DNA from: Physcomitrium patens
Lineage: Eukaryota; Streptophyta; Bryopsida; Funariales; Funariaceae
Length of the DNA stretch: 64,000 nt
Reading direction: 5' to 3'
NCBI RefSeq assembly: GCF_000002425.4
Contig: NC_037264.1
Coordinates: 6,960,475-7,024,474 of the forward strand
Part shown: piece by piece, positions 994 through 55,773 of the stretch
Numbering within the stretch: position 1 is the stretch's first letter
Layout of the letters: each line of letters begins with the position of its first letter
The notes under the pieces: generated by a model
What the model saw: only the letters and a program-made list of their open reading frames with translations
Told to the model about the DNA's origin: nothing
Database searches by the model: none
Program-made: the position numbers and the translations under genes

Positions 994-1993
<1,000 letters not shown>

Positions 1994-2116: not shown

Positions 2117-2139
2117 ACCCCATCGCCATCGCAGCCTCC

Positions 2140-22860: not shown

Positions 22861-24464
22861 AATCACATGAATTATGGGGTGTAGTACTAGCTATGAAAAA
22901 TGAAAAAGTGTATTTGATTGGGACATTAGTAGTTATAGAAACAGATTGTCTACCTTTGTTAGGCATGATGACAAATTATTCAACTCTTGATATTGCTATG
23001 TTGAGGTGGATAGCATATATCAAATCTATGAATCGAGAATTTAAACATATTGCAGGGAAAGAAAATTCAATTGCAGATATGTTATCAAGAGCAAGGTATA
23101 ATTATGAAGAAAAGATGATTGATTTAGAAGATGATGTGGGTACAAATTTTTATAGCAATGTGTTATCAAAGGAAAAGGGTGTATGTTCTAATATATCATT
23201 GGAAATATTTTTAAGAGATTTATATGAAAATGAATGGAAAGATATTCAGGAGTATTTGAGCACATTAAAGCGACAAAATGGTTGGATAGATCAAGAATTT
23301 AAGAAAATCCGAAAGAAAGCCTATGGATATTTTTTATGTGACGGATATTTATGGGAGCATCCAAAAATGAGAGGAGAAGTATTACAAAGGATAATATGTG
23401 GTTTAGAACCTCAACAAAGGATTATTAAAGAATTTCATAAAAAATTTATGTGCAGGGCATCGAGGTATTTGGGCAACATTCACTAAATTAAGAGAAATAT
23501 TGGTAGAAAGGAATGTACAAAGACATAGAAAAATTTATAGAATCTTGTGAGACTTGCCAAGTATATTCAAATATTTGGCATCGAGATGGATTACATCCAA
23601 CATATCCTTTGGCTTTACATTACAAGTGGATAGTGGATTTAGTGGTAATGCCTATGGAACTTGGACAAATGAAGTATTTGGTATATGCACGAGAAGATTT
23701 ATTAAATATGGTTGAAGGACAAGCATTAAAAATAAAAGATACTAAAGGTGTATGTTGATTTCTATTTAAAGAAGTTATTTGTCGCTATGATTGTATTAGA
23801 AAAATTACGACAGATAGGAGTGAATTGGATGTAAAGGAAGCACGAGAATTCTTTGGTAGGATAGGAATTAAACTTTCTTTAATAACAGCATATAATCTAG
23901 AAGGTAATGGTAAAAGTGAGCATGGGCATTCACCTATTATTAAGGCATTAGTAAAGGCATGCAATAGCAAAGCACATAAATGGCCTAGACTACTACCATT
24001 TATACTATGGACAGATTATATAATTCATAGTTTGGTAATAGGTTATATGCCTTCTAAATTAATATATGGTCAAAAACCAGTAATGCCAATAGAAGATGTA
24101 GTACCTACATGGAGTGTATTGTCTTGGACAAATGATCTCAACATAGAAGAATTTTTAGCATTACGAATTCAACAACTAGAAAGAAGACCAAATGATATTG
24201 AAATAGCAATAGAAAAATTGAAAGAAGCAAGAGAAAAGAATAAAGAAAGATTTGATAAAAAATATCAACTACAACCCAAGGCTATTGAAGATAGTGATTG
24301 GGTATTAGTTTATGATAGTAGCTTAGACAATCAACATAGCACTATGAATCAAAGAAGTTTGCAAAGAGATGGTTTGGACCTTATATTGTCAAAAAGGCAC
24401 ACAACAATGGAACATATTCATTACAAGAACTTGATGGTACAGAATTGAAGGTACCAATAGCAGG
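22860..24464 (+). pseudogene. Element B RNase H tail and integrase
   Basis: Frame 22893-23486 holds an RNase H C-terminal block (VVIETDCLPLLGMM, then AMLRWIAYIK and HIAGKENSIADMLSRARY). It runs into the integrase zinc region, with frame breaks, and then 23513-23758 (FIESCETCQVYS, WIVDLVVMP with the first catalytic Asp). Frame 23825-24448 covers the NGKSEHGHSP block with the catalytic Glu and the RYG-like C-terminal region. The second Asp lies in ITTDRSE near 23808. The set is recognisable but frameshifted. Confidence 0.7.
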
Positions 24465-24963
24465 TGTCACAGACACAGAAATATAGGCTTGAGATCTAAC
24501 AAGAAGTTCAAGAAGAACTGACAAGAACTGGATTAATCAGATGAATATAAAAACAACACCAAAGAGGTGAACTAGAGCTCCAAGAGATGTGTTGTCGAGA
24601 TTGAAGAACTCTTTAGCCTCGATTCCAATATATACTCCTATTTAGGAAGCTTCTCAAGTAACTTCTACCAACTAAGAAGCTTCTAAAAGGTTCCAGAGAC
24701 TTGCTTCTAGAAGATTCTAGAAACTTGTCTCTAGAGGGTTCTAAGAACTATGTCCCTAACATCTTCTACCAACTAAGAAGCTTTTAGAAGGTTCCAGAGA
24801 CTTGCTTCTGGAAGGTTCTAGAAACATGTCTCTAAAAGGTTCTAAAGACTATGTCCCTAACATCTTCTACTAACTAAGAAGCTTTTAGAAGGTTCCAGAG
24901 ACTTGCTTCTGGAAGGTTCTAGAAACTTGTCTCTAGAAGGTTCTAAGAACTATGTCCCTAACA
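24465..24963 (-). repeat. 3' LTR of element D, three 101-bp units
   Basis: 499 bp. The U3-side half consists of three tandem units at 24662-24762, 24763-24863 and 24864-24963. Each carries contiguous inverted GAA/TTC modules, for example TTCTGGAAGGTTCTAGAA. The partner LTR has only two units, which accounts for the 101-bp length difference. Confidence 0.9.
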
Positions 24964-25489
24964 TCACCCCCTTCTTGAGCTTCGAGGTCTCTAAGAAGTA
25001 ATGTTGTTGTTAATCAGTACCAATGCAAGAAAATGAAGATCTGTCACATAACGTCTGCTGTGAACTCTAACTATTATTCATGAGGCAAGTGATTCATCGA
25101 CCCTTGAAGCCAATGGTAGTAGCCCATTCCTTCGACTTCTAACCAAGCATGAACTTTCGTGTCCTCATTGTGAAATTATCTTGCAAACACGCCTTCTGGC
25201 TGACCATCATAAGCAGGCTTGAATTCAAATACAATCACCAGTGATCGGTTACTCGGTATCCTCCGTCGTCATCGTGATATAGGCGGTTCTTCATCTCGGC
25301 GTCGCCTTCGTGAGCTAGTCAGTTGAGATAATGTGACTGGCATAGTATCTATCTCTTGGCTATCCATATCAGAAGACCAAACTATGGCTACTGAAAAAAT
25401 TCTACTTTATCTTGGAGAAAATAACTACATCAACTATGAATTTTGGTGGTGCTCTCCCCCTTTCTTATATTCTTAGATGAGCAAGCTTT

Positions 25490-27479: not shown

Positions 27480-28561
27480 TCATTCCAACTTATCCTTGCA
27501 TGTCAACCAAGTGAGAGGAGCAGCAACTTGAGAGTAATTCTTGATGAAGATCCAATAGAAGTTGGTAAAACCAAGAAAGCATTGTACATCTCTAACCGTC
27601 TTCGGAATCTCCCAAGACACGATTGCTTTCACCTTCTTGGGGTCCATCTTCAAGCCTTTCGTAGTCGCAACGAACCCCAAAAACTCCATCTCGATTTGGT
27701 AAAATAAACACTTCTCCAACTTGGCATATAGTCCTCACTCGCGTAGTTTCTCCAAGACCAAACGAACGTGTTTTTCATGCTCTTCCTCGTTTCTAGAGAA
27801 TATCAGAATATCATCCAAGTAGATGACAACAAAATCGTCAAGGTGCTCCCGAAAATGTCATTCACTATATGGTGGAAGATCGCTAGAGCATTGGTAAGAC
27901 CAGAAGGCATGACATTATACTCAAAATGGCCATACCTTGTACGGAATGCTGTCTTCCACTTATCTCCTTCCTTGATTCGTACGAGGTTGTAAGCTCTCCT
28001 TAAATCAATTTTTGTAAATATCCTTGCATGTCCAAGTTGTTCTAAGATATCAGAAATCAAGGGTAACAGATAACGATTCTTCTTTATTATCTTGTTGAGG
28101 CCTCGATAGTCCACGCACATCCGCAACAAGCCATCTTTCTTCTTCACAAATAAGATGGGTGCTCCAGTTGACGATTTTGAATGACGGATGAAGTTCTTGG
28201 CTAGATTCTTGTCGATGTACTTTCGCAACTCCGCCAACTCCGTCTGTGATAGATTGTAGATTGGGCCAAAAGGCAATTGTGCTCCTTCCTGTAAGTCTAT
28301 GGTGCAATCATATCGTCGGTGTTCCGGTAGCATGTCGGCATTCTTCTTTTCAAACACGTCTTTAAAATCCTTATATTGCTCAAGTATACTTGCTATCGAG
28401 ATCTTCTCTCTGGTAGTTGGAGCCGCATAAATGACAAACAGTGTGCCTTCCTTCAATGATCTTATAAACACTCTTGCTTCAATGAATAAGGATTTCTCTA
28501 TTCGGGATTTTCTACTAGACTTGCTTTTGGGTGGTTTTGTGGGAAAGGTCATCTTCTGCAA
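27480..28561 (-). pseudogene. Reverse transcriptase of element D
   Basis: Frame 28561-27803 encodes 252 residues with [45 protein letters not shown] and [13 protein letters not shown]. In the neighbouring frame the catalytic block [12 protein letters not shown] can be read at about 27840-27805, so one frameshift separates the two. The thumb and connection (FLGF, LDPKKV-like) continue at 27719-27480. RT copies element RNA into DNA; this copy is close to intact. Confidence 0.85.
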
Positions 28562-28690
28562 CCTCCAATCTATGGATGGGTTATGCTTTTCTAATCAGGA
28601 AAGACCAAGAATAATAGGATTTGATGGAATTCTAATAATATTGAAAATAATATGACTACTATGGCCCTTAAACGTTACTTCTATAGGTTC

Positions 28691-30246: not shown

Positions 30247-30644
30247 TGTCACGGATATAGAAATACAGGCTCGAGATTTAATAAGAAGTTCAAGAAGAAC
30301 TAGCAAGAACTAGATTAATCAGATGAATATAAGAACAACACCAGAGAGGTGAACTAGAGCTCCAAGAGATGTGTTGTCGAGACTGAAGAACTCTTTAGCC
30401 TCGATTCCAATATATACTCCTATTTAGGAAGCTTCTCAAGCAACTTCTACCAACTAAGAAGCTTCTAGAAGGTTCCAGAGACTTACTTCTAGAAGGTTCT
30501 AGAAACTTATCTCTAGAAGGTTCTAAGGACTATGTCCCTAACATCTTCTACTAACTAAGAAGCTTTTAGAAGGTTCCAGAGACTTGCTTCTGGAAGGTTC
30601 TAGAAACTTGTCTCTAGAAGCTTCTAAGGACTATGTCCCTAACA
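30247..30644 (-). repeat. 5' LTR of element D, two 101-bp units
   Basis: 398 bp. Tandem units are 30444-30544 and 30545-30644. Unit 1 contains GAAGCTTCTAGAAGGTTC and TTCTAGAAGGTTCTAGAA, each a run of four perfectly spaced heat-shock modules. Confidence 0.9.
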
Positions 30645-31137
30645 ATAGGCAAACGAATCAAGTTATTTAGACAAAGAGATGAAGGCATTTATTTTGATGA
30701 AGAAAAAACTTCAGTACACGATATTGAGATTGGAATAGAAGAGCATATTGAAGATCAAGAATTGTACCAAGATGAAGAACATTCTACATCAACATATTGA
30801 AGAATCATTGGCGCATGCCGAAGGATGCACAGATTCAAGGGGATGGATGTCGTGATGTGACACGATTAATAGGTAAAAAAGTGTAGAGATTATTATCATT
30901 TAAGAGATCTTAGTTCAAAGTATCAGAACAAATTATCTTAGAAATATAGTTAATAGTCAAAGGGATAGAAAAATTAAAAGGTACCAATGCTGCCTTTAAG
31001 AAAGGTGACTTCTACTGACTTTGTAGCACCATAAGTAAGGCAAATCAAAGTAGATTGGAAAAATAAATGATATAGGCATTTTTAGAAGGAAATTAAGAGT
31101 AAATTCTAGAAAAAAGTTACTTAGAAAAACTAGATAT
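30645..31137 (+). pseudogene. End of element B pol and 3' untranslated part
   Basis: After element D the element B frame continues with KRIKLFRQRDEGIYFDEE and an acidic tail, ending at a stop near 30799. The remaining 340 bp to the 3' LTR contain no gene; an A/G-rich stretch near 31105-31130 could be the polypurine tract. Confidence 0.6.
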
Positions 31138-32499
31138 TGATACCCGGAGAGGGCCGGTTATGAACCAGGGTCAAAATCAAACCCTGGGCACAAAACCGAG
31201 ACTCGACGACGACTCTAGGGTTCTTTTGGAGATCAGAGAGTGAGATTTGATAGCAAATTGAATAGGTTTTCTATGAGCATTGATTTTAGGTGATTTGGAG
31301 TTGATATGACTTTGTAAGAGCTTTGCAAAGTCAAGATTTGAGTTTATGGTTATAATTGTTTTTAATATGTATCGTGAATTTGAGCTTGATCTAACCGTTG
31401 AATTGAGAAATATTGAGGTATAAGTGGGTCAAGGTCTCATAAAGTAGAGTTTTAGATCTAGTGGGGGTTTTTAAGATTTCTTGCAATATATTAGTTGGAT
31501 TGGAGTGAAACTTATGTGAGAGGATATTAGACTTATTTTTCTAAGCATATGAGAACTTTGAGATCAATCAAACGGTGCAAAAGAGAGATATTGGCTCTGG
31601 AGGATTGGCATCAGGATTGGAGAAGGTGGCCTACTAATATCCAAGCACATTTTTGAGGATATCGTCAATTTGATAACTCCGATCCTTATCAATTTTTTTG
31701 TGCTTGTTTTTAACTTAATTTCTTAGAAGTGTGCAAAATTTGAGTTAAGATCAAGGATTTATTCATTAGTTATTGAGGTTTAAATCTATTTTAGGAGTTA
31801 TTAACATTTGATTTAGGGTTTGGTAAGGACTTGGTTTGGGATTTAGGATTTCGATTAGGGTTTGATTTAGAGCTTAGGATTTGGTTAGGATTTGATTTAG
31901 AGTTTAAGATTTGGATTAGAATTTGGTTTAGGATTTAAGATTTGGATAGGATTTGATTTAGGATTTAGGATTTGATTAGGGTTTAATTTAAGGTTTAGGA
32001 TTTGAATTAGGGTTTGGTTTAAGATTTGATTAGGATTTGATTTAGGGTTTAGGATTTGATTAGGGTTTGATTGAAGATTTAGAATTTGGATAAGGGTTTG
32101 GTTTAGGGTTTGGTTTAGAGTTTAGGATTTGGATTAGGATTTGGTTAGGGTTTGATTTAGGGTTTAGGATTTTATTAGGATTTAAGATTCAATTAGTTTG
32201 GCTTAAAGTTTGAATAAAGTTCAATAGGATATTAAATAGAATTAAATTAAGATTAAATTGAGATATATTTAAATGACATTTGGATTCTTTCTAATGTTTC
32301 TTTAAAAATTCCTATTATTTGTTGGAAATTTCTAAGATGTTTTTTTGAATTTGATTAAGCTTGTTCAGTATTATTATAGTCTAATTAGAGTATAATTAGT
32401 ATTCTATTAGAATTAGGGTTATGTTATAGTAATTTCCATTCTTCCATCCATAGCCAGATGCTTGGAGCATTCTCAAGCAAGACTTTACTTATTACGACA
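31138..32499 (+). mobile_element. 3' LTR of element B
   Basis: 1362 bp, from TGATACCCGG to ATTACGACA. It aligns with the 5' LTR at 12466-13817 with many substitutions and a different arrangement in the telomere-like tract (31800-32190), indicating an old insertion. Confidence 0.8.
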
Positions 32500-33552: not shown

Positions 33553-36500
33553 TAGGTATTTTACAACCTTCAAAATACAACAATAAAAGTAACATAGTTC
33601 ATTCATTTCTAAAAACAAGACAAGAACAATTAGCTAGCATTCTTATTAAACTATCAAAAATATAAATCTCAAAGAACCAAAAATTCAATATATTCTTGTA
33701 CAACTTAAAAAGAATAAATATTCATTCAAAATTAATAAAGTATTGAAATTAGAATGGCTATTACCAAAGATAAGTAGATAAGAAAGTCTTGAAACAAGAC
33801 TAAAGACTAAAAAGATATTGACTAGAGTAAAGAAGGCCACACTTTTACCTCTATATATACTATCAACTAAAAACTACATGGCAACATCCTATAAGACCTC
33901 CAATACAAATCCAATTTGCAAGATACATGTCTTAACTTGAAAGAAAAGTTTCCTATATATATGCCACATTATTAGCTTATACTACTAATTATCTACTCAT
34001 ATAATATGTAACTAACTTATTGGCTAAGTTTTTAACTTATCAATCAACTATAAAGTCAAATAGACATCTATGAAGCTTTTGAGAATCTTTTCCATAAGAT
34101 AATATCAAATCTATCTACATTAATTTTCTACCTAATACTTGATACCTTCTAACAAATGTTCTATCTCTATTATCAACTTTGGATTTCTTATTAACCTTGG
34201 AATTAAATCCTTTGCAATCAATATCTTTTGTTATAAATTTAAAAACTACATTACCATCTTCCATTCTTTAATTGCTTCCAAAAACATACATATCTCTATA
34301 GTATCTCTACTACTTTTTTGATTTTCTTTTCTATCTATTTGCTTTCATTTCTATCTTCCACTCAAAAATCATTTTTGGTTGAAAGAATTATTCCTAAAAC
34401 CTTACAAAACATAAACTCCACTTATCTATGTATACTCCAATATAAAGGTATTTGAACTATAACATCAACTTATAGACTCTAAAGAATCTACATTATTTTA
34501 CACAAAATAATCACAATAATTTGAGTACAATCCTAGCAAAATAACATCAATAATTACAAATATTTGATTGTCTTTTTTAAAAGAATAATTTATTTTTGAA
34601 CTTGAATCTAAAAGTCTTGTATAATTTAGAAGAATTATTCTTAAAATCATACACAAGATGATCAGATGACATACTTTAATGAACTTGTTTAAAGAAGGTT
34701 GAATTAATAGCCAATATTGATTTTATTGCTCAAAGATGAAAATGCTTTGGCTTTAAGAAAATTGTTTTTTTTTGATAAAATATTCATAGTATTATAGATA
34801 CAAATTATTCACCACAAAAGCAATCACAATAACATAGAGTTCACACAATTCCATCTATGAGCAATTCATATATGACCACACTCTCCAAAACTAAAAATAT
34901 GGGCATAAACTTATTTCTTATATGAAATATGCTAATATGCAAATATTATTTTATTTATTCTTTTAGTAAAAATGAATTTGTTTAGTAAACACAATGGCTA
35001 ATTTGCAAATCAAGTAGAATCACTTTTTTTTTACTACTTAACATAATCACTCCTTAAAAAAAAGATAGTATTTTTGTAAAAATAATGCCACCCATCATTG
35101 CATCCTTGTCAACAATGTGACAAAATATAAGAAACATTCACCTTGTTTCTATACCAATTTACATCTTCACTGTCTCTTTTTCAAATTGACTAAAGTAGCA
35201 AAGCATGGATGTTTCTAGCAATAATCATAATAAAAATCCAATCTTACTTTGAAACATGTTCTGTGCCACTCAACCTCAATGCAAAGTTTGTAATAAGAAA
35301 GGGTGTTAAAATAATGATCATTATTCTATCATCTCTCAATATCCATCTATAGATGGAAAATATAATTAGGTCTACATCATATTCTTGTTGTTGAGATCAA
35401 GAACTATAGGATTTCAATCCGTATATTTATACCTTGTAGTTTTGTAATAGTAATGTGTTGAATATATATTATTGTTTAGGCTCCTTGAATCACTCTCTTG
35501 ATTCTTTATATTCTTTTTATCTTATGCTTATTTCTTCATATATGTATTTTTTTATATCAAATAATTATATAATCTTAAAAATCTAATTAAATATTATAAT
35601 ATAAATCAAAACTTTTTATAAAAATATTTTTTTGCTTTAATTTTTTTTCTTATATCTTTTGGTAGTAAATTTAATCATTATGGTTATTAATAATTTATTA
35701 TATTTTATTCTTATAATCAACAAATTTCTTCCTAAAGATATAAACTTTGGATTGGATATTTGAATGAACCATATATTTTACTAAATAGATAGTTATTTCA
35801 ATCAATTCATATATCAAATATCTTCTTTCTATATAAGTTCTTTCTACTTTAATGTTTTGAAATATAATCCAATTGTATATATCACATAACTACTCAAATT
35901 CATTATTCCAAAAAATCAAATATATATTTACATTATTTTTCATTACAATCAAGTAGAGGAATTAAAAGCAATACTAGTCACTATCAAAAAATCGTTAGTA
36001 TAACTGTCAAAATATTTGCTTCACCTATAACTTCTACCATCTAAAATATGAAATAAAAAACTTCAAAATATTTTGATAACATCCTAAAGATAATGTGATT
36101 TCAAAATCTCATGATTTATTTAGGTAAAAAAAACCAAGGTTTCTTACTAAATCCTTTCAAAACCAAAATGTCAAGATGGCAAGAATGACTATGTTTTCTT
36201 TTTAAGATGTCCATATCCACATTTTTCATGTTAATTGAAACATATTCTAAATTCACTACTTTTAGTGCCACTATTGAAACAAACTAAACTGATTATCTTC
36301 ATACAACCAAAGATATGTTTGCTTTTTAAAATGATGTAACCATTGTTGTACTTTTAAATTCCAAACAAGTGACAGAACAAGTGGAGTGTGAATAGAAAAC
36401 AAAGATAAAAGATAATGGTTCATAGTTAACCAACAAAAAGCTGAATATTTTGATTAAAGAAAGCTGTTAATAAAATCAAAATGAAACAAGAAATGTGAAA

Positions 36501-36691
36501 ACCTCACACAATGTAAGACACAGAAAGGCAAAAGAAGAAGAAGGCAATGAAGTGGGTGATTACAAAAGCCGAATGGGTGCACTAAGGACAATAAAATGGA
36601 AGAATAAATAGAAGAAGGAGAAGGGCGGGCGGGCAAGAGGGAACGGGAACGAGGGAGCGAACGGGGAGAGCGAAGGAGCGGGGGTTTGGGA

Positions 36692-36700
36692 TTAGGGTTT
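36692..36700 (+). promoter_or_regulatory. Telo-box (TTAGGGTTT) in the right RPL8 promoter
   Basis: Mirror of 2140-2148, about 150 bp upstream of the start codon. A TATA-like AATAAATA lies near 36602-36609. Confidence 0.7.
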
Positions 36701-36846
36701 GGAGGCTGCGATGGCGATGGGGTGGGGGGGGGGGGGGGGTTTGGGTAAAAAGCCCGCTCCCCCACAAAAGGGCCCCCCTTTTTCCCCTTTAACTTCCGCC
36801 GCAGGGTTTGTGTGGGTTTTTGCCAAGAGCTCCCTTCTTTGCTGGG

Positions 36847-37846
<1,000 letters not shown>

Positions 37847-38224
37847 AGGGATGGCGGTGGTAGGGGGCGAGCGGTTGGGAAGTCCCAGCGGCGATAGAGA
37901 GGGCGTGGTGCGGGGGAGAGACGCGAACGAGAGAGACGATGCTGCGTATGTGATGTGTGTGGACTTGTGGATCAATGGAATGGCGAAGGCCGATATTCGA
38001 GTAAATTGGTGGTGGTGGTGGTGGTGGTGGATGGGGTGTGGACATTTGTGTGGCCCGGTTGCGTTGATGTGGCAATTTGGAACCGGTGCAGACGGGAGGT
38101 GAGAGTGGAATGTGTGACGTGGGAGGGACACATATGGGGTGGTTGTGCGAGTAATGGCAACGGTTGTGGTGTGGCGATGTTGATGGTCGGTTGTGGGAGG
38201 ATGTTATGATGCGTGCGGTTGTGG

Positions 38225-42839: not shown

Positions 42840-44456
42840 GGGAGGTTAATTGTGCAGAGGAGGAAGATTGAGCGGATGAGCGGAAGAAGAGGAAGGAGAA
42901 GAGGGGGGCTCAGATATGCCGGTGGATTTCTCTTTTGACTGAAGGCGGCGAAGGTGCTCGCTCTTGTTGCGCTGCTCTACTTCAGCTTCGTGACTTCGAA
43001 GAATGCTCGCAGCTTGTTCATTGCTTCCTGTTTCAATTTTTGGTTTTCTTTTTGGTTCAGTAACGGCGGAGTTAGGTGGCGGTGTGCGGAAGAGTGGACG
43101 ACCACCTTCTGGTTTTTGTCCGTGGAGGAGTTTTATAAATTTTTTTATTTCTTTTTAAGGAAGTAGTGCAAAGGAGAAGGATTAGACCTCCCCTGGGAAA
43201 TACGCAAAGCTTGAAGGTCAGTCCTCGTACTCAGATTCTCGGCGAGCATTTTCGTATTTCGATTACGGCATTTTGTTTTGTGTTGGTGTCGAGGAGTCGC
43301 GCTGGTCACCCCTGTGAAATTGCTTGTTCGATGTTGACATTCTGGAACGTAACCTTTTCAATCATATACCGAGTGCTCGCTTCTTGTCTCACTTTGAATT
43401 CATTTTCACCCAAGTGTTAGTAAGGCTTGGGTCGCGGAAAACGGTTCGACCGCCGCTGTTTCTTCCGCATCGTGAGTATCAAGATCGAGATGGTGTGAAT
43501 TTTAATGGTTTCCTCTTTAGTAAGCAGAATACTCTCAATGTTAAGGTGATTTAATGATTTTTTCTCGTAGTTAGAGTTGTTGGAGGTTTAGGATTTACTT
43601 CATTCCCTGCTCCCTGTTGCATCCTCGTCGAAATATCTGTCCGAATTTTTGGTTTCGGTCTTCTTGACACTTGAAGGACATATTATTGGTCGAGATCTTT
43701 CAGGCGGCGGTAGAGGAGGGTAGCTGGATTGAATCGTTTACATTTCGCAAGTTAGAGAATATTCCGGGATGAAGCGGAAGATCATTGGAACAGTACGCGA
43801 TGATTGTCTAAGAATTCTAATTTCCCCCCACCAAGCTGCTGAAGGGTCCGTAATCACAACTCTGGCTTCGAGAATGCGAAAAGCTATTTCACGTATTGTG
43901 AAGCTGAGGTCCTTGTTTGCAAAATGTAGATAAATTGTCGATAATCTACTTTCGCTACAATTGATAGGATCCAAGTGTTTTTGCAGCTTCTTACTGTGTA
44001 AGAGAGTGGGAATAACTCGTGGACGGTAATTTCTTGGAACAGAATGCACTGAACTTACATGTGCTTCTCATCGACTCTTCTTAGTGTCAATTTCTTTCCT
44101 TCCATGAACGCTTCATTGTTAATTCGACAAAGACATAGGGGAATGTTCGCTGTGTTCTATAGTCTTTTCTTCTGAACTGCTGTAGCGAAGTTTCTGATTG
44201 GTTTCGTATGCATTGTTGAGAGTCTGTAACAGACTGAATTGCGGAAAAGCTGGCGATGCTGGATTTTTTAATCCTAAAACTCATTATCAGCTCTTTGTGA
44301 TAACCTGTACGTGGTATTGCAGCACCTAGAAAAGGTTCACGGATGTTTCGAGTTGAATTTAAAATTGAAAACCTCATCGCTTAGAATTTGAATGATTTCT
44401 TCTTTGTCTTACCGTTAGTATTTCTCTTGCTGTGTCAGGTTGGTATTAGCTTTGGA
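42840..44456 (+). promoter_or_regulatory. Probable 5' leader of the ACT-PEPC gene with at least one leader intron
   Basis: A purine-rich GAGGAAGA-type stretch at 42845-42915 resembles a transcribed leader. A strong 3' splice site, pyrimidine-rich with GTGTCAG, ends at 44438, only 18 bases before the start codon at 44457, so the leader is probably spliced. The donor cannot be fixed from sequence; AAG/GTCAGT at about 43216 is one candidate. Confidence 0.4.
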
Positions 44457-47400
44457 ATGGCGCACGCTAGTCTTCATTCAGGTGTCAGGTATATTCATTT
44501 AATTTGTGAATCTGCTTTGTGAACCTGGACGTCTTGACACTGGAACTGGTTCGATCGGTATGTACGCTCTGATCTTGTACATACCTAGAGGTTATGACAA
44601 CTTCGACTGTAGTGTGCTCACAGAGTTTTATTGTTACATGAAAGAATTGAGGGAGAAAACAGTTTGGAATCAGTAGCTATTCATACCGTTGGGTTTAAGA
44701 GTATTAACAGAGTTCTGGAGGGCCCACCCCCAACTATGAAGAGGTTTTTCTGTACTTTCATTACGGATACCAGTGCTCTTTAGTCTAGGTGGTGTCTTTC
44801 GTGAACCCCTCGTATCTTGAACCTTGGAAGTGTTTTTTAAGTGGAGAACTTGACGCCGAAGCTTCTTGCATATCAAGTAAAATGTTCACGCATTTGTTTC
44901 ATACTGGAACTTTTTAGTCTATGTGGTTGAGTGTCAAGGGCACATTTCACTGGAACGGAAGTGCATAAGAGGGTTCTGTATCATGTATTGAGGGTTCTTT
45001 TACAGTTTGTAAACCGTATGATAACTGGGATTGGTATCTCTGTTGGTCGTGTTCTGGTGCAGACCTTCGCTACAGCCCATTTTTACAGCAAGGTCGAGCA
45101 AAGAGCACTCTTTGAAGCATCCACAAGTGAGCGAAATCCACACTTTATATTTCAGCATGACAATTTTGCGCTGAGCTACTCACAGCCTTTAGATTGTAGA
45201 TATTGATGAAATCATGCTGGTCAATTGAACCTTGATAAAATGGTGTTGCTTACGTATGATATAATATCGAGACTTTACCCTTGTAATGTGTATTACTGAA
45301 ATCCCTTCGCAGTACAACTTTCTGAATTGGAACATCATGAGAAAAAAATCTTTGTGCTCATACAGGCTCTGAGGACTGCACTTTGTAATAAGGTGAATCC
45401 GGTCTCAATTTCATATTCTCGAGGTATCTTAGTAGGGGCAGCACATCGATTCTCCGCGAAACTACCACCAACGACGCCCGTCAGGTGCTCCACTTAACGA
45501 ATTGCTATCTTCGTGCTTAATTTTGTTGTGATATCTGTTGGATTATTTGGAATTCTCATATGGTTCATCGTTCATCATCAACGTTTCCCGAATCCACTCC
45601 CGGATGCACATGAGAATTAATCTTGTTTCATGGAATCGGTTTGATCTTGAACGTGTCGGTAACATGTGCATGTGCGCTTCTGGACTGTAGGAGAGGCGCT
45701 TATGTAAGAAGTCCAGTCATTGCTGAGGCTTCAAGAGTACGATCCACAAGATTTGATGGCGCGATTGCGACGGAGGATGTGACAAACCTTTCTATTTCGG
45801 ATGAAGCACCTGGGTCTAGGGCCAGCTACAGCACGGACACGGATAGTGAGGGTGAAGGTGAATATAGTCTGGCGTTTGATAATGAGAGCATGCCCGGATT
45901 CACAGTGGTTGGCGTCGATGGAATGGATCAAGACAATTTGCTTATGGACGTTACTTTGAGTTTTTATGAGATGGGCATCAGGTATTTCAAAATCAACTTG
46001 TTTTGATTGTGAGGTTTTATGTTGTTGCTTATCAAGGACCGTTCGTGGAGTCTCTTGTTTCATCTACCCGGATTTTTCTCGCTTTCACCAAGTTTCTTTG
46101 CTGTTAAATCTTTTTGTAGATCTATAATTGTTTTTGAAGTTGATTTCTGTGCTTGGCGTGCATGTTCTCAACAGTGTTCAGAGTGCCCAGTTGCTTTCGG
46201 AAAACAATCGTGTAGTAGACGTGTTCATTGTTTCGGATGCTGAATCGAAGGCAGCTATACCTGAGGACAGGTGGCCTGACATCTCTGAGAAGATTTTTGC
46301 TAAATTAAAGCGGCGTAATGTTCTTAATACGGCAAGTGGTGATCCTAATCTGGCGGAACAGGTTAGCTCATTTTATATTTCTTGTTTTGGAGGTCATGCA
46401 GGTACCTCTCTTAATAATTATCTTTTTAACCAGAAGAGAGGTTCTGAGAAGAAAAATTAATAAGGCGTTCTATTTTTGTGATGTCATACTTTCTTGGTTG
46501 GCAGGACTGATAGTGTTAGAGCCTACTGGTATCGTGGAAGGTTGGAATTAGTGTTGGAACTTATTGGACCGATTACCTCAACAGGTCACCTTCTTGACAC
46601 AAACCTTGAACAAAGCAGTTCGTGGAGATGGCAGAGAAGATGTGCTCGAAGCAGTAAGTTTTTGCAGTTCGTGTTCATTGCATTCTTATTTGTGCGATAC
46701 ATGCAAGCGGTAATGTTGCTGGATTCTGAATTCATATCTGGCTTGTAAATAAACAGTAAGACATTCTATAGGACATTGGAAGCACATTGAAGTTGCATCA
46801 TAATCTTACCCGAGTGCTTTGCAAATGACTGCTTAATTCTGAAATTACGATCTCCTGCTTGGAGTAGGCTTATTTTCTGCAAAGTGGTTTTGAAGAGCTG
46901 CGTCAGAAAGAAGATCCTAGAAAGCGCGCTGACTTACTGCGTTATATTGAGAATATGGAGCCGTCTAAGGTATGACATTGGGGGTTCGATCTGCCATTTT
47001 AAAAATCCTGTTTGCAATATTTTCCGTGTATTAAATTTTCTCTTCTTTCCGTGATTAATCTTCATGGATTTTGTGTTTATCCTCAAAGAATGAGTTGATA
47101 TTTTTTGCTTGAATGTCTCACCATTATCATGATGTATTTCATCAACTATGAGGAACCTTCTGCAGATAACCGCAGTTATTCGTTTATTCTACCTATATTC
47201 ATCCCTTCTTAACGTAGCAGACGAAGCGCACAGTCATCGAGTGCGTCGCGAGCAGGTATTATTTTAAACTTTAGTCTCGTTGCGACTTTCATAAAATTTC
47301 TGGATGCAATTGCAAAAATTCGTTGAGTCGTGGTGTGAGTAAGGTCATGCCAAAAACAACCTGTCTTTCTGTAATCTTTCATAAGAGTTTTAGTTTAATC

Positions 47401-50400
47401 TTTTTGAGGGTTTTACAGGTGTGGGCCAGCAGAAATGCAACGCCACTCTGGTATGCATCTTTTGATCACACTCTAAGAGCTTTCAAGAAGGAAAACGTAG
47501 GAGCTACCGAGCTTCAAGAATTGTTCAATCGAACAGAGGTCAGGTCCTTTATTATTTTGAATCCCTTTTTGCAATTTCTTGAGCAACGTTGTAATGTTGC
47601 CATTTTATATACAAAGATTTGAGCAGTTCGAAAGCAAAGTAATTTGCCAGAATGTTATCGACCTTAGTCAAATCATCAGTTTATAGTGTAAATTGTACAA
47701 CTGTTTGTTCGAGGAACTTCCCTGAATTTATACTGAGTGTTCCTAAATCTCCTCCTTGCGTGTGATGCCAGTACAATCCAGTCTTTACCGCCCATCCAAC
47801 AGAGGCTCGGCGCAGAGAAGTTCTTACATGTTTGCATCGTATTTTTCTTCTCTGCAATGATCGCGAGGTATTTCACTTTTGTTTTAATTTAATTTTTCAA
47901 TCCACAAATTTATCTGTGTCTGCATTAAGGAAGCTAATCGTTCTACAAATTTGTATTTTCATCAGCATGTCTTGTCAATGGACTAACTAATCTAGGTTCA
48001 TATTTTGAAATATTAAAATAATAATCATAATTATATAACCGTTCTTTGACAATAGTCAATACTGTTGTGGTAGGTTGAAGTTTGGTTCTAACTTTTGTGC
48101 ATCAGAACAATGAATGATTTGTGAATCAATCATATTTCAAATTCTTACTTCATCTTTTTACGCTACAATGGATCGGTAACTGTTTCCATACAATTCACTA
48201 GTCAGCCCTAATGATTTGCACTGAATGCTTGGATCATGTGGTGAACTGGTTGTACTTTGTACTGTGTTGTATACTAATTCTACTGTGGCATGCAGGATCC
48301 AAGACTTAGTCCCGCGCAGAAAGTGGAATTGGAGGTTGAAATTGAGGCTGAGGTAAGCATGATGATTATTCGAAGTTTCATTCTTCTGTAGTAATAACTA
48401 TGAGTTGTCTTTGAAGAACCCTTGATTTGTAGTCAAAACCTTATTTATTCGTTGGTTACAGATTGAAATACTTTGGAGAACAGATGAGATGCGATCAAGG
48501 AAACCTACTGTGTTGGAAGAAATAACTACAGGACTTGATTACTTTCGTTATTCTCTTTTTGAAGCCGTGTGCACTACTTATCGATATGCTGAGAACTCCG
48601 TGAACGTAAGTGTTCATATGCAAGTTATCATGTCTTGAAATGTCCTGAGGCCTTCGAAGAGCAAGAAATGCTTGTCTTTATTTTTAACATTGCAACTGCA
48701 AATTCCGACAGGCTATATATCCTGACGAAGGTCTTGTTGTTCCAAGTTTTATTAAATTTGGATCGTGGATTGGTGGTGACCGCGATGGTAATCCCTATGG
48801 TTAGTTTCTGAACTTTCACTCCCCACACAAGCCGCACCATAACATTAGACCATGCCTGTAAAAATCCCTCTTCTGTATGTTTACAACTACCAATCATTGT
48901 CCCATATTGTTTATGGTGTACTCTTCAAAACTGTACTGATGCAGATGTCATGTGCCGTTGGATGAATCAGTCCGCCCCGAGACGACCGTGATGGCAGCGT
49001 TGCTTGCAAGCCGCCTCATCTTGGCTGAATACATCCGTCGAGTCCGTGCATGTCAGGTGAAATTACTTATCTTTGATCCTTAATCTTTTAATGTGTAAGT
49101 TACAGATTTAGCAGTTCCGGACTGATCTTCGGATACTTTTCCTTGCTTGAGATTCTTGGTCACTTTGCTTCAATTTAATTTATAATACGATTTGTCATTA
49201 GATGTATTTCTTAAACAATGTTTGATAACTGTGTTGGTATTTATGCAGGACACATTGACTCACTCGCTACTCATCTCTGAAGTCTCATCAGAGCTATTGG
49301 AGAGTTTAGAAGAGGATAAGAAAGTGATGGAGCAGATACCTGCTATTCGCTTCGATAGTGATCTTTACGAGCATGTAAGTTTGTTGCTTGACTTAGTTTT
49401 CATATTCTTGCAAGTGTGCTACATAAACTTAATATGTGGTTCTCATCTTGTGCATCTCAGTGCATTCTCCTATTTTGAAGTTTTTCTCTGGTAGCCTCTA
49501 ATTTTACCAATTGTCTTATGATTCAGGAACCATACAGACTCAAGCTTAGAGTCATGCGACACCGACTTGAGCAAAGATTGAGAGAAGTCAATGCTCGCTT
49601 GCGTGAGTTAGGAAAGGCAGGCATGCATGATGAAGTATGCCTCCAGTTTACCCATGCCCATTGCTTCTTATTTGCAAGCGCAGTAGTTTCAGCTGAATAA
49701 GCATGTGTGAGGTTTATTAGCATCAGTTGTATACACATTTTAATCTCATATTGGTTATAATGAATTGAGGTCTGAAGTGGTAATGAGACATTATGAAAGT
49801 TAGCACTAAGGGAAAACGCCCTAAAAACTTGGAATTCACAAGAAACACGCGTGGTTGGACTAAAACTGAATTATACAAGCAAAGAAACTGAACGTTGGAT
49901 TGCTCATTTATTTGTTAATGTGGTCCATCTGGTTGGAATTGCAGTTGTTGATAGACATAGAATTCAACATTGACGAGATTCCCGGGTTGGATCCAAAGAA
50001 GGATGCTTACGTCAGTGAGGACCAGTTTCTGAACGATTTGAAACTAATCGATGTGAGTACCTCCTTTACTCTGGTGAAATTATACACTTTTCAGTAAAAT
50101 CATGCTGATTGCATTGAATTGTTCAAGTTATTTCACTGCTCTGAATGCTGCCCGTATTGAATATTCGTGTGTGCTGTGGATTTCAAGCCATTATCAACTT
50201 TTCATTCATGTGTGTAACTGTCTGTCTGAAGAGTGCGTCATTTGCACTCAAAGAGCCTCAAACTAGGCAGTTCAGTAAAGTGCAATATATTTACGTTTGA
50301 CTTGTATTCAGTTCTCATTACGCAAAAGTGGAGACTTTCGCTTGGCGGATAGAAAGATAAAGGATTTGATTCGACTGGCTGAGACATTTGGCTTCTACTG

Positions 50401-53400
50401 TTGTTCTCTTGATGTCCGGCAAGAGTCAACTGTACATACTGAGGTAACGGCGATTTGTTATATTTTGATCAATGCGAGGTACTGCAGCGTTTATTTGAGA
50501 TCTTTCGCTTATAATAATGTACTCAAACTGCAACTGGGAGCCGGTTACTTGTCGCATGCGATCAGTTTTCTCACATGAAATGAGGTGGTCCTGGACGATT
50601 TTCTGATTTCAGGCAACAGATGAGATTATTCGACTCTTAGGACTACACGACAATTACAACTCACTATCAGAGGCAGAGCGCATGAATTTGCTTGCAGAAA
50701 CTATCTCAAGTCCGCCCCCTTCAGACGAAGTCGAGGTTTGTGTTTGTGCTTATTCTTTTCAACGTACGGGATTTTCTTTGGGTTTGCGTTGTAACAATTG
50801 TCGTGTTTGTTTGTATACTTGTCAATCGCGTTAAGTTTAGCCGTAGACTTGTGCTAGATATACTAGTGTACTTCGAAATCAACATGGAGTTTATCGTTAC
50901 GTGAGGATGTGCGCTATGATAAGATGACGGTTCATCTATTGTTTTCATGTTGAATACTTTTCAGGAATTATACAAAACCATGTCGGAACCATCAAGGGAG
51001 GTAGTGGAGCTCTTTTTCGCCTGTGCGGATATTATAGAAAACATCTCCGAAAAATCCATAGCCTCTTACGTTATCTCCATGACTCGTCAAGCATCTCATG
51101 TGATGGAAGTACGTTCCTTTCCGCTTTTGTTCATGATTAGTGTCTTAGCTGCTCCCACTTTGGTTTGACACCATAAGTCGTTTCTTGTGTCACCGTGCCT
51201 TAACCTTCTGCGCTCTGTTGGAAATTAAAGTTCTATTAGAACTGGAGTGAAGTTCCAATCTATTGAAATCCATATTACATTGTAACTGATGCGGAAAGGA
51301 TTCTAAACTCACATTTTTTCGTTGTATTTCCTCCTCTTCTACTTCCTCAAAAACAGGTATTATTCCTTGGGTGGTTTGCATGTAAAAATTTGCTAGAGAA
51401 AAAAGCTTCCGGAGAATGGAGCGCACGGTTGGTTGTTGCTCCTCTCTTCGAAACTATACCAGATCTGGAGGTACTACGGAGGAGCTCGAAATTGAATAAT
51501 TCTTTTGCTTGGCTTTCGAGACCTGTGTTGCAGAATAGAATATCAGCAGTAATTGTTTTGAATGATAAAAGGAGCTCAAATGACTTAGTATTTCTTTTGA
51601 CTGTTAAATTCTTGTGTTGTTTGTAGAACATGCCAGGGTCTCTAGAATCTCTTTTCAAAAATGAGACTTACAAGGCAATCTTGATGGCTTCAGGCGGTAT
51701 TCAGGTAAAGTCAACCAGATGTGTTTATAAATAATATTACACTCGCACTAAAGAGTCTTACGTGTTTTCTTGGATTGCATTCTTATGTCTTGGGTTTTGT
51801 GTGACTATCGTTAATGATACTCCTCGTAGCAAACAGAGTTGTGTCGGCAAGCTTCGAATTTGATTATGATTTTGTTTAACCCTTCAATATCTTCGAAGAG
51901 AATGTTTATATGTAGAGGATACCATGACAAATGGAGTGTTTGCAGGAAGTGATGTTAGGTTATTCAGACTCCTGTAAAGATGGAGGTATTACAGCTAGTG
52001 CATACAACCTGTACAAGGCTCAATGTGTAATTCAAAAACTCACAAGTGAGGCAGGAGTGAAGTCGTGCATCTTTCATGGTCGTGGCGGTACTGTTGGTCG
52101 TGGAGCCGGCCCGACTCATGAGAGTATTCTATCACAGGTGATTTGTGCAGATAACTACATATCTCACTTTTTCTTTTTTTGAATGTTTTAGATATGAAAT
52201 TGTGGATGCTAAATCTTAGAAGTTCTTGCTGGTCACATGCATAATGTGGTGCTGAAGTTTTTTGGTCTCAGGCAACCATGATGGCAAAGAGTTGATTTTT
52301 AAAACGCATCATTTTCCTTAAACTTGTAGCGTGATAATGTTCTTATTTATTTACTTATTTTATTACTTTTACCCGTAACAAGTACTAGAGGTCCGTGTTC
52401 TTCTCGAGCAGTAGTATCAAGCGCTTGCCTCTTTGATTGACTTCTCTTTCACTTGTTGGCAGCCACCAGGCAGTGTGGATGGACAAATAAAATTCACAGA
52501 GCAAGGAGAAGTTATTACTTATCGTTATGGAAATGCTCAAACGGCTGCATACGAGTTGACTGTAAGTTTTCCATCACTTCTATTTCTGGCTAGTTGCCCT
52601 GTCTATCATGACAAGATCCCTGTCTTGATTTTTAATTGAAAATACTGTTGCATGTCCAATTGGTCTTGATCAGACTTCACGACTAAAACGCTCGGGATTG
52701 TTATAGGGACTTTGCTTACTGAATTTCAAAAAAAATCTTTGAAATTGCACCCAAAGGCTTCGGCCCATCAAAAATAACTGAGTTTTAACTAATATTTTTG
52801 GCCATGGTGTTGAATTAATAGGTTGGCATTACTGGGCTTTTAAAAGCTAGTCATCCCGCAACTCGACTTGGTGGTGACTATGAAAGGGTGAGCAGACATC
52901 GAGTTATTAATTCTATCGTTTTCTGGGAAAAAAATATACATTTGATAGCACTCTTCTTGGCATGAGGAATCTACGAGACTAATGTTGTAATAGTTGTGGT
53001 ATTTTATCTTCATTGCGGTATCTAATACCACCCTGCAGCGTATTGTATCATGTTATGTTAATCTGAGAAGTCAAGGCATCTTTTTTTTTTATTATGAAAT
53101 TCTACGAAGTCATAATAATACAACAGTATCTGTTCGGTAACATGGTGTGATGTGCTGGAACAGTACTTCTCTATTATGGAGCAGCTTGCGTCAGCTGCAG
53201 AGAAGTCGTACCGTGAACTGACTGACGATACGGAAGGATTTTATGATTATTTCTATGAATCAACCGTTGTCAACGAGATTGGACTGATCAACATTGGGAG
53301 TCGGCCTGCTCGTCGTAAGGCTGCTGTTCGTGACAAGTCTTCATTGCGTGCTATCCCTTGGGTCTTCGGGTGGGCACAGGTACGGCATAGCTTGTGCAAA

Positions 53401-55773
53401 CAATTCGTGTCTATCAGATTGTTTTGAAAATCCTTATTAGCTACCGCATTCGTCAAAAATGCTCTTGTTGCTGTGTTTTTCTGTACTGGTCATTTTTCAA
53501 ATACGGTAATATATGTTAAAGACTACTTTTGCGAAAATTTCCGATAATAAGATACTCGAGTTTTTCTAGTATCGCATAGAAAACCCCTATTCAGTTAACT
53601 TTTCATGTAATTGATTGTTGGGAGATAGAATCTATAGTATTAATTTTGAGTGCTCTGCCTTGGGATAAAACCCCGTCTTTTTGGACCTTAGAGAGCACTA
53701 AGTTTAGTTTCATGTCATCAGTGGGCATGGTTCGAAAAGGTGAGACTGGGTGGTTCATTTCACCTCAGGGTAAACATAACCTTTTCGTTCAAATTTCCTC
53801 ACGCCATAACTCATATTAGTAACTGTTTCCTAGACAAAATCCTGGTTTTTTTAATGAAGGTAACCAGCCCGAATGCAACCTCCTCACTCTTGGTCAGATT
53901 CTCTAGTCCAGTTCATCATGCTCAAACTTGCTAACCCGAGACTACGACAGATTGCAGACGGATATCTGAGCTGACATTTGCATCAAGAAAGCTTAGTTGA
54001 AGACACATAATCAGTTGAATATCAATTATTGCATGTAATATTCTCAAGTACAACTAAAGTTGGTTATGTACGGATTTTGTGTCCGACAGTCAAGGCACAC
54101 ACTACCAGCATGGTATGGGGTTGGCAGTGGCATTGCTCATTATACACGCGATGAACCAGACAGAATTAAAGAGCTTCAGTCGATGTATCAAGAATGGCCT
54201 TTCTTTCGCACTTTTCTGTCCAATGTGCAGGTATTTACGAACCCTCAAAGTCTGAAATTCTACATTGCTAGAGCTTTATTGGCTAAATATTGAAAATGAC
54301 CTTTTTCTAACTGTATCATCTTCATCGGGTATCTTAAGGTGGATGGTCTTGTTGAGGTTTTCACTAATTTTTTTTTTTTTTTTTTTTTGCATCACAACCA
54401 CTTCCACGTTGCTTTCATACACATTTTTTTGGCTATTTGTGACGTGAGATGAAGCTTGTGATTTTTGGCAACATGACAGATGTCTCTGTTTAAAGCATCA
54501 ATGGAGATCGCTCAAGAATACGCACGATTATGCTCGTATGTGTGCTCCCCATTACTTTGCCATACATGATAAATTTGCGTAACGGAGTTCTTTTGTAAGT
54601 GTTTTGCAACTAATTTCTAACATGAGGTTTCCCTGGTAATCATGGCATTGGTTATGTGCGTCTGTGTGAGATTTCCCATCCAATATCTCCGAGCACAGTA
54701 GTCATGGTACCGACGTGTGTAACAACCAGAATACCTGTATAAAATTTGTCCACAATCCTAGTTGATGCTTAGAACCTTTAGGCTGATCCTATCTAGTAGT
54801 TTTCAAACCTGTCATATTTTTCTTTGATTAAATATTGTTCTTTAAATTATCCATGGTCCTTACATGTTGTACTTCCTCACGCTAGTCTATCCATCTGATC
54901 AAATGCAGGAACCGCATCACGCAAAAGCTGGTCTATGATCTAGTGGCGCAAGAGTACTCTCTCACGAAGGCTCAGGTTTGTTACCTTTGTTCTTTAGCAA
55001 TTATGAGTTGTGTCCGTTTGGTTCGTTCTAAACTACCCGTCTTGGTCATTTAAGTAAATAATACATGAAATGTTCAGTGGTCTTTTAAGGTAATAGATCA
55101 TCCTTCTGTGGCCTATTTTCGGGGGAATAATTCAACTCAGTAATCTGTTTCTTAAATATCAATATATTAACTCTAAATTGTGTCTGGGTTTGTCTCATGT
55201 GTTCGGAAACATGCATGAGCTGAAAGTAGTGAATTGTTAGTAGCTGTTGCCTGATCTTGTTGCAGGTGGTCATTTATTTATTCCTCAGTCATTTTCAATG
55301 CATATATGTGAACCAGCTAATCTCTGATTGTAAAAGCATGGGGGGGGGGGCGGATGGGTGTAAAGTTTCTGATGGTTTCGCAGCAAAATAAGTTGCTCCA
55401 GGACAATCCGTCTTTGGAGAGTTCATTCGACACGCGACGAAAGTACCTCGACCCACTTAACCACCTCCAGGTACTGCTAGTTTCTGTTTTCTGATACAAC
55501 TTGCAATTTACTATCTGTTTTTCACGAGTTTTCTGCTTTTTTACCCTTGAAATTAAGTTACACTATTAGCAGATTCTGCTCTGATCCAAAACCCAGAATG
55601 TTTTCATTTTATATTCTAAAACACCTTATCTTCTTGGTTATCTGGTGTGATAGATCATACTTTTGGGCCGCCAAAGAGACCCAACAGCACCTGAGGAGCA
55701 AAAACCCCTGTGGGAGAAGCCTTTGCTCAGGACCATCAAGGCCATTGCCAGTAACATGCGTAACACTGGCTAG
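44457..55773 (+). CDS. PPC: Plastid-targeted ACT domain-phosphoenolpyruvate carboxylase fusion
   Basis: Predicted to fix bicarbonate onto PEP, giving oxaloacetate. Exons, all phase-compatible: 44457-44488, 45374-45484, 45691-45981, 46175-46361, 46552 (or 46585)-46653, 46868-46969, 47166-47255, 47419-47538, 47772-47867, 48296-48352, 48462-48605, 48712-48799, 48971-49056, 49249-49374, 49527-49634, 49945-50052, 50312-50443, 50613-50735, 50965-51108, 51357-51470, 51627-51704, 51946-52137, 52463-52561, 52822-52887, 53164-53379, 54090-54230, 54480-54535, 54909-54975, 55384-55470, 55654-55773. Product about 1160 aa. Residues 1-59 ([14 protein letters not shown]...) lack acidic residues and are rich in A/S/R, like a chloroplast transit peptide. 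Residues 76-114 are acidic. Residues 118-190 form an ACT domain ([29 protein letters not shown]). From about 208 on it is PEPC: FTAHPTE (catalytic His353), [29 protein letters not shown], the [14 protein letters not shown] loop (856-869), GSRPARRK, and a final RNTG. No plant-type N-terminal phosphorylation motif is seen. No internal stop occurs. The first three exons rest on splice logic only. Confidence 0.9.
45890..46361 (+). other. ACT domain segment of the fusion gene (end of exon 3 and exon 4)
   Basis: Two exons joined in phase 2 (codon 145, AG/T) encode a beta-alpha-beta-beta-alpha-beta pattern: [20 protein letters not shown], then [29 protein letters not shown] and [12 protein letters not shown]. 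This matches the ACT fold of ACR/GlnD-type regulators. The usual D-x-x-G-L-L turn reads D-Q-D-N-L-L, with Gly replaced by Asn. ACT domains typically bind amino acids and transmit allosteric signals. The domain ends 17 residues before the first PEPC-like segment, leaving no room for another enzyme. Confidence 0.85.

Follow-up and report, generated by a model that had tools for sequence, protein, structure and literature searches.

Results

Gene structure and transcript

The window, a stretch of 64,000 nucleotides of Physcomitrium patens DNA, contains on the + strand an 11.3-kb gene (44457-55773, start and end positions exact) encoding a protein of 1179 aa. The protein consists of an N-terminal extension (residues 1-126), an ACT domain (127 to about 214) and a PEPC domain (228-1179), and the features of the locus are listed in Table 1. 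The coding part is interrupted by 30 introns, one of which splits the ACT coding region into halves that join in phase. In the exon model derived from the window sequence, all introns are GT-AG, all joins are in phase and there are zero internal stops. The first-pass annotation had described thirty phase-compatible exons without internal stops; the compatibility held and the count was raised to 31 coding exons, with a 5' UTR exon in addition.

Table 1. Features of the ACT-PEPC gene, in window positions.
Feature	Position	Strand	Remark
5' UTR exon, 3' part	43169..43216	+	in P0001; donor AAG/GTCAGT after 43216
Exon 1: 5' UTR tail 44439-44456, ATG at 44457	44439..44488	+	first in-frame ATG
Exon 2, N-terminal extension	45063..45126	+	
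Exon 3, N-terminal extension	45366..45484	+	
Exon 4, remainder of extension and first half of ACT	45691..45981	+	
ACT domain first half, from residue 127	45854..45981	+	profiles, model
ACT domain second half, to about residue 214	46175..46310	+	profiles, model
Exon 5, ACT second half, linker, first PEPC codons	46175..46361	+	
PEPC domain, residues 228-1179, introns included (exons 5-31)	46350..55770	+	PF00311
Exon 6	46585..46653	+	
Exon 7	46868..46969	+	
Exon 8	47166..47255	+	
Exon 9	47419..47538	+	
Exon 10, TAHPTE, catalytic His366	47772..47867	+	
Exon 11	48296..48352	+	
Exon 12	48462..48605	+	
Exon 13, GGDRDGNP	48712..48799	+	
Exon 14	48971..49056	+	
Exon 15	49249..49374	+	
Exon 16	49527..49634	+	
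Exon 17	49945..50052	+	
Exon 18	50312..50443	+	
Exon 19	50613..50735	+	
Exon 20	50965..51108	+	
Exon 21	51357..51470	+	
Exon 22	51627..51704	+	
Exon 23, active-site loop (11 letters)	51946..52137	+	
Exon 24	52463..52561	+	
Exon 25	52822..52887	+	
Exon 26	53164..53379	+	
Exon 27	54090..54230	+	
Exon 28	54480..54535	+	
Exon 29	54909..54975	+	
Exon 30, acceptor 55366	55366..55470	+	as in P0001
Exon 31, C-terminal RNTG and stop	55654..55773	+	

The predicted protein was letter for letter the same as a public protein, P0001, from Met1 (MAHAS) to the end. P0001 represents 193 contigs, of which the longest, at 4,355 nt, is shorter than the 11.3-kb gene; the source of P0001 is therefore spliced RNA (cDNA). 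The 5' UTR exon is also visible in P0001, spliced from 43216 to 44439, and six more residues of P0001 at exon 30 placed the acceptor of that exon at 55366 and not at 55384. The exact match of the whole product on short contigs bore out the single gene proposed in the first-pass annotation; P0001 spans both the end of exon 4 and the start of exon 5, where two separate transcripts would have parted. Bacterial contamination was ruled out by the 30 introns in the coding part and the position of the gene about 7 Mb into its contig (C12).

ACT domain

The NCBIfam profile for the GlnD C-terminus matched the moss protein (E=3e-11) and all 17 family ACT stretches (best 1.4e-16). These stretches were from the window protein, P0002, P0004-P0009 and P0013-P0021; P0010 and P0012, in which gene models interrupt the ACT domain, the second Ceratodon protein (P0003) and P0011 (945 aa) were left out. 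Pfam ACT-type families were found among the stretches: PF24931 in 16/17, PF22754 (bHLH ACT-like) in 13/17 and PF01842 in 12/17. For the moss protein alone, the Pfam profile search did not report PF01842, and PF24931 fell under the Pfam cut-off (E=0.021 for the whole protein and 0.0012 for the fragment, in an uncorrected 1173-aa model). The ACT fragment by itself had 0 matches among PDB sequences. The AlphaFold model of the domain (pLDDT 78, pTM 0.64) has the ACT fold, and the domain was also folded in a 1065-residue model (pLDDT 84.9). The first five Foldseek matches of the ACT model were ACT-like domains of GL3 and maize R, the best with E=9e-4, the sole value below 0.001; SerB2, PGDH and aspartokinase stood lower in the list amid unrelated rows. 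Since the GlnD profile, the relatives and the predicted fold agree, the ACT identity of the moss domain is settled, and the 17/17 profile matches together with the fold rule out a chance likeness. Judged by profiles and model, the domain is GlnD/ACR-like. An ACT domain had thus been rightly recognized at first pass, and its limits of 118-190 were corrected to about 127-214.

A glycine in the beta1-alpha1 loop is near-invariant in ACT domains (PMC3173338). The moss domain has Asn154 in this place and may therefore be structural or changed. Among the 17 stretches the residue was Gly in eight, Asn in eight and Asp in one, with the glycine changed in mosses and liverworts; because 8/17 keep it, part of the family looks to be of the ligand-binding type. 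In P0004, P0005, P0006, P0007 and P0008, identity was 43-66% for ACT and 74-80% for PEPC, by which measure the ACT domain evolves faster than PEPC.

N-terminal extension

The extension of about 126 residues has a basic character, with few acidic residues and an Ala/Ser-rich start. Acidic residues made up 1.7% of the first 60 positions of the moss protein versus 15% from residue 127 on. Among the 14 family members with at least 60 residues ahead of ACT, 13 had at most 6.7% acidic residues in the first 60, and Riccia P0008 had 11.7%; five of the 19 ACT-bearing members had fewer than 60 residues there. This means that the plastid signal varies among members or that some of the models lack sequence. 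Between the moss and Ceratodon, identity was 59% in the extension and 92% in ACT and PEPC. From its composition and low conservation, the extension is a probable plastid transit peptide, in agreement with the original proposal.

PEPC domain

PF00311 matched with 885 bits over profile positions 1-919 of 919 (uncorrected 1173-aa model). The PEPC is thus complete, as first claimed, starting at residue 228 rather than at about 208. Foldseek matches listed for the PEPC model were plant and E. coli PEPCs (E 2e-47 to 1e-44). Alignment with E. coli PEPC showed 17 identical and two conservative residues at 19 active-site positions, E. coli K620, R438 and P647 being left out of the comparison. The kept catalytic residues were H366, W476, R665, E794, D834, K837, H870, R872, R878, R992 and R1007, and R878, K1069, R1129 and N1177 equalled the E. 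coli aspartate-site residues. In this alignment the checked active-site and aspartate-inhibitor residues are intact.

Family and phylogeny

The search for the same domain pair in bryophytes and algae was successful: the fusion occurs in another moss (Ceratodon), liverworts, a lycophyte, streptophyte algae and further transcripts. An ACT stretch was carried by 19 of the 25 aligned proteins. No seed plant was present among the 11 of 21 family rows with an organism name (among the matches listed). The three protein searches covered the best 120 of 7,069, 7,285 and 537 matches, with just under 8,000 candidates scored in two of them and 4,720 in the third, all of 0.55-1.75 times the query length; no further named eukaryote was found in the best 120 of the 537. 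A plasmid tblastn gave only bacterial PEPCs with less than 60% identity.

Trees were built without P0003, P0011 and P0012, using 44 of the 78 bacterial loci that have an open frame above 800 aa; 80 loci had been kept of 594 confirmed. The PEPC parts of the family formed one clade (100/100), which includes P0022, a protein without ACT whose short N-terminus is perhaps truncated. Nearest to this clade were mostly gammaproteobacterial PEPCs (joint branch 93/95), along with a Magnetospirillum and a Burkholderiales MAG. ACT-PEPC seems to be an old green-lineage family.

Discussion

PEPC is the standard anaplerotic enzyme and the entry enzyme of C4 and CAM. For plants, two PEPC classes have been described, plant-type (PTPC) and bacterial-type (BTPC). 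We know of no ACT domain in PTPC, nor of one in BTPC. The novelty supposed at first pass was upheld in that no description of a fused ACT and PEPC was found in the literature searched; the family seems to be a further PEPC class of green plants, so far undescribed. Its PEPC portion probably appeared among the transfer candidates of a 2012 list. The gammaproteobacterial PEPCs (Thiohalomonas/Chromatiales type, PF00311) resemble the moss enzyme in the PEPC domain (about 50% identity), the RNTG end and the active site; unlike it, they have no N-terminal extension, no introns and no ACT stretch in the aligned bacterial rows. PTPCs share reaction and fold with ACT-PEPC, including Osppc4 of rice, a chloroplast PEPC tied to ammonium assimilation (PMC9358456). 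However, PTPCs end in QNTG (PMC4196954), whereas the moss ACT-PEPC ends in RNTG, is about 33% identical to the C16 plant-type PEPC of the same moss and stands on another branch from the two moss PTPC rows. ACR11, ACR12, other plant ACT-repeat proteins and GlnD have the same GlnD-type ACT, but the ACR proteins have no catalytic domain and GlnD has a uridylyltransferase in place of PEPC.

We consider that ACT-PEPC is an old green-lineage enzyme from one ancestral fusion, plastidic, with an ACT domain tuning PEPC by an amino acid; this full reading has about an even chance of being right. In the doubtful but serious alternative, the same plastidic enzyme would be regulated only by aspartate or malate at the standard site, and the moss ACT would be a ligand-free module for dimerisation or assembly. 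Asn154, the bHLH proteins at the head of the Foldseek matches, the PF22754 matches and the kept aspartate-site residues all agree with this; the GlnD-type profiles that fit every stretch and the glycine kept in 8/17 argue against it. Import into mitochondria, or dual targeting, with the enzyme feeding the TCA cycle, is unlikely. A basic, acidic-poor extension also fits a mitochondrial presequence, but its length and Ala/Ser-rich start would fit a plastid signal at least equally, and ACR11/12, the GlnD-like ACT proteins of known location, are plastidic (PMC3173338).

It is very unlikely that the protein is simply a known plant BTPC with an N-terminal extension. Its RNTG end follows the (R/K)NTG rule for BTPC (PMC4196954). 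PMC8784020 recognizes BTPC by PRK00009, which the protein also matches, yet an 815-aa fragment scored 764 where the cut-off is 815, and that study counted 0 BTPC in P. patens. The only BTPC row, a single uncurated Arabidopsis sequence, is 33% identical to the window protein versus 50% for the bacterial PEPC L017, and it groups with E. coli and moss PTPC (100/100) across the tree, which tentatively disfavours a plain BTPC. Joining of neighbouring ACT-protein and PEPC genes on paper has a negligible probability: thirty coding-part introns allow error, but the identical product on short public contigs, the ACT halves joined in phase and the recurrence of the fusion in proteins of Ceratodon, liverworts, a lycophyte and algae contradict it, and transcript and relatives together rule out two separate genes.

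In the plastid, the tuned ACT-PEPC would convert PEP and bicarbonate to oxaloacetate, which would supply aspartate-family amino acids and also carbon skeletons for GS/GOGAT. Besides being inhibited by aspartate and malate at their usual site, the enzyme would respond to glutamine or an amino acid related to it: its ACT domain would pair with that of another subunit and tune catalytic activity or the assembly of tetramers. GlnD is the bacterial glutamine sensor, and the profiles of its C-terminal ACT are the nearest to the moss ACT. With another residue in place of the loop glycine, the domain in mosses and liverworts may bind a different ligand or none; that the moss enzyme carries its own ligand sensor is what we infer, and it could fail in mosses. 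ACR11/12 are plastidic GlnD-like ACT proteins (PMC3173338, PMC12702975), and the finding of PMC12702975 that GS activity is unchanged in acr11 mutants makes the analogy with GlnD weaker for plants.

Physcomitrium lends itself to routine gene knock-out, which already puts the idea within reach of a test. When enzymes are called bacterial-type by their RNTG end or a PRK00009 match, two distinct plant enzymes may be grouped under one name. A conserved further class with ACT and a probable plastid location would be a single-polypeptide link from amino-acid level to carbon supply. On a bolder and rather improbable extension, some enzymes filed as bacterial-type in seed-free plants, for example the highly expressed one of Isoetes CAM (PMC8566536), could be ACT-PEPCs, and green plants would have begun with a third, plastidic PEPC class of gammaproteobacterial descent, in which a GlnD-type glutamine sensor would couple anaplerotic carbon supply to nitrogen status, and which would have been lost in seed plants, with the sensor rewired in mosses.

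Gene structure and transcript

The window corresponds to C12:6960475-7024474 of our moss genome. As annotated here, the ACT-PEPC gene spans 11.3 kb and consists of 31 coding exons, all with GT-AG borders, which join into one open frame encoding 1179 aa when the exon 30 acceptor listed in the table below is used. The unbroken frame reported in the first-pass annotation was retained, and its count of thirty exons was corrected. The protein-search match P0001 (source 'lgn', representing 193 contigs) was letter-for-letter equal to the window protein from MAHAS through the C-terminal end. Because its longest contig is 4,355 nt and the gene 11.3 kb, the contigs are evidently cDNA, and P0001 agrees with the earlier proposal of a single gene over the whole interval. 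No in-frame ATG was found between the upstream stop and Met1, which makes MAHAS the first start.

Features of the window and locations of further PF24931 genes in the moss genome
Feature	Position	Strand	Remark
Upstream exon of ACT-PEPC	ends 43216, spliced to 44439	+	seen in P0001
ACT-PEPC coding frame	44457-55773		31 exons
Exon 30 acceptor	55366		
Open frame of near-identical pair	637-2386	+	
Open frame of near-identical pair	36454-38203	-	
GATTTAGG-like tandem array	13153-13507		
GATTTAGG-like tandem array	31807-32183		
101-bp tandem units	24662-24965		
101-bp tandem units	30444-30671		
Open frame, retroelement-like	23759-24448	+	
Open frame, retroelement-like	27803-28594	-	
PF24931 (ACR9-like ACT) genes	C5:8141695, C6:12216825, C17:5356784, C2:11819120, C1:18458014		up to 110 bits

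Elsewhere in the window, a large inverted repeat within the first 38 kb is suggested by two open frames that are almost the same in sequence, run in opposite directions and lie about 36 kb from each other. The two GATTTAGG-like arrays have a similar unit and are perhaps degenerate telomere-like repeats, or perhaps belong to this inverted repeat. The 101-bp units at the two sites are related to each other. Two other open frames resemble pieces of retroelement integrase and reverse transcriptase, their translations being judged by eye.

Distribution of the fusion

Among the matches listed in two protein searches, P0001-P0021 were the top 21 in both; P0022 and PEPCs of bacterial or bacteria-like type ranked below them. 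Ten of the 21 (P0001, P0004, P0009, P0011, P0015 and P0017-P0021) came from lgn, JGI, EukProt and MMETSP sources, and species-level statements rest on the other 11. Named relatives were from Ceratodon (two proteins), Marchantia paleacea, Riccia, Calypogeia and Diphasiastrum; Spirogloea (two), Mesotaenium, Chlorokybus and Mesostigma were read from gene-model prefixes. The pair of domains that the first-pass annotation had proposed to look for in bryophytes and algae was thus found in Ceratodon, liverworts, streptophyte algae and a lycophyte. The window protein was 91% identical to a Ceratodon protein.

An ACT stretch was present in 19 of 25 aligned proteins; those lacking it were P0022 and the bacterial or bacteria-like P0026, P0028, P0046, P0063 and P0078 (two of these five named). 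The PEPC of P0022 (1006 aa) grouped inside the ACT-PEPC clade with no ACT domain visible; its gene model may be incomplete, or the ACT domain may truly have been lost.

No row named as seed plant, fern, Selaginella, Chara or Klebsormidium was found among the best 120 matches of each of three length-filtered protein searches, in which most rows carry no species name. Since an orthologue as close as that of the lycophyte would outrank bacteria, this points strongly, though not conclusively, to the absence of ACT-PEPC from seed plants.

Phylogeny of the PEPC part

The main tree was built from the PEPC part (67 rows, 926 columns) by a careful IQ-TREE run under LG+G4, with the window gene, C16 and C9 representing the PEPC loci of our moss genome (those on C1, C5, C6 and C15 were left out). 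Its 19 family rows formed one clade (100/100). Within it, the window protein grouped with Ceratodon and P0004 (100/100), the three liverworts with one another (100/99), and the land-plant proteins as a whole (100/99), adjoined by Spirogloea, Mesotaenium and P0009. Chlorokybus was paired with Mesostigma (99/82), and the lycophyte was placed weakly beside the liverworts (91/47). This branching suggests that a single fusion was inherited vertically.

The closest outgroup rows were 27 bacterial ones, which joined the family at 93/95. Most of them are gammaproteobacterial (Thiohalomonas and Chromatiales, for example), but a Magnetospirillum and a Burkholderiales MAG are also among the 27. On the opposite side of a 100/100 split lay E. 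coli, the moss C16 and C9 PEPCs, and what we take to be an Arabidopsis BTPC, a row that serves as a lead rather than as a test. C16 and C9 are labelled plant-type because C16 closely resembles plant PEPCs in sequence and C9 pairs with C16. In a quick tree without BTPC, the ACT-PEPC rows likewise clustered together (100), separately from E. coli and the two PTPC rows. The window protein was 49.6% identical to Thiohalomonas PEPC (L017), whereas identity was 31.0% to E. coli PEPC, 33.4% to the moss C16 PTPC (572 columns) and 33.3% to the presumed Arabidopsis BTPC sequence.

Conserved residues and the N-terminal extension

Aligned to E. coli PEPC (L015), the window protein was identical at 17 of 19 selected substrate and active-site positions, the others being Ser to Thr and Ile to Val. 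All four aspartate-site residues (R878, K1069, R1129 and N1177) were identical. The protein ends in RNTG.

Acidic residues made up 1.7% of the first 60 residues of the window protein versus 15% from residue 127 onward. At least 60 residues precede ACT in 14 of the 19 ACT-bearing members, and the first-60 acidic share was at most 6.7% in 13 of these 14 (Riccia, 11.7%). Compared with Ceratodon, residues 1-126 were 59% identical, and ACT and PEPC 92% each. In its composition and low conservation, the extension resembles a transit peptide and may direct the protein to the plastid; it is also possible that it is a mitochondrial signal.

The ACT domain

Residue 154 of the window protein is Asn, at an ACT position where PMC3173338 describes a near-invariant Gly, located at the Ser site of PGDH. 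Across 17 ACT stretches this loop position was Gly in eight (Mesostigma, Mesotaenium, Diphasiastrum and P0017-P0021), Asn in eight (the window, Ceratodon, P0004, three liverworts, Chlorokybus and P0015) and Asp in P0009. Spirogloea, outside the 17, has Asn too. Within the family the ACT domain evolved faster than the PEPC part. Some members of the family may plausibly sense amino acids through ACT; in the moss this is doubtful, given Asn154 at the near-invariant Gly site and the fast evolution of the domain.

Our moss genome holds further PF24931 genes, which are possible donors or partners of this ACT domain. In 14 control genomes, PF24931 had a match in Caulobacter only.

Relation to described PEPCs

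ACT-PEPC was not found in the titles and abstract openings of the open-licence papers, preprints aside, that were retrieved on ACT domains and PEPC, in line with the novelty inferred in the first-pass annotation. In the parts of PMC3521007 covered, six P. patens PEPCs are listed, plus a separate entry, A9SLH0, among apparent transfer-candidate rows. As our genome holds six other PEPC loci and the window gene, A9SLH0 is probably the latter; no mention of an ACT domain was found in those parts, nor A9SLH0 elsewhere in the open-licence papers searched. By the PRK00009 match used in PMC8784020 and the C-terminal tetrapeptide rule in PMC4196954, the window gene would count as BTPC. PMC8784020 itself gives 22 PTPC, 0 BTPC and 10 'PEPCase superfamily' for P. 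patens; with 0 BTPC, the gene seems to be filed elsewhere there. Strong expression of a 'bacterial-type' PEPC in Isoetes is described in PMC8566536. The Isoetes enzyme might itself be an ACT-PEPC. ACT-PEPC is real, conserved and, in the literature covered, undescribed as a fusion.

Possible role

PMC3173338 describes GlnD as a glutamine sensor that may act through the two ACT domains at its C-terminus, and ACR11 and ACR12 as plastidic proteins with ACT of the GlnD kind. PMC12702975 and PMC4944146 state that ACR11 was reportedly linked by earlier work to plastidic GS and Fd-GOGAT, and that its loss shifted C/N balance with GS activity unchanged. A rice chloroplast PEPC aids ammonium assimilation, as stated in PMC9358456. 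We infer a regulatory role and a plastid location for ACT-PEPC; a plastidic enzyme of this kind would place a carbon-supplying step under direct amino-acid control.
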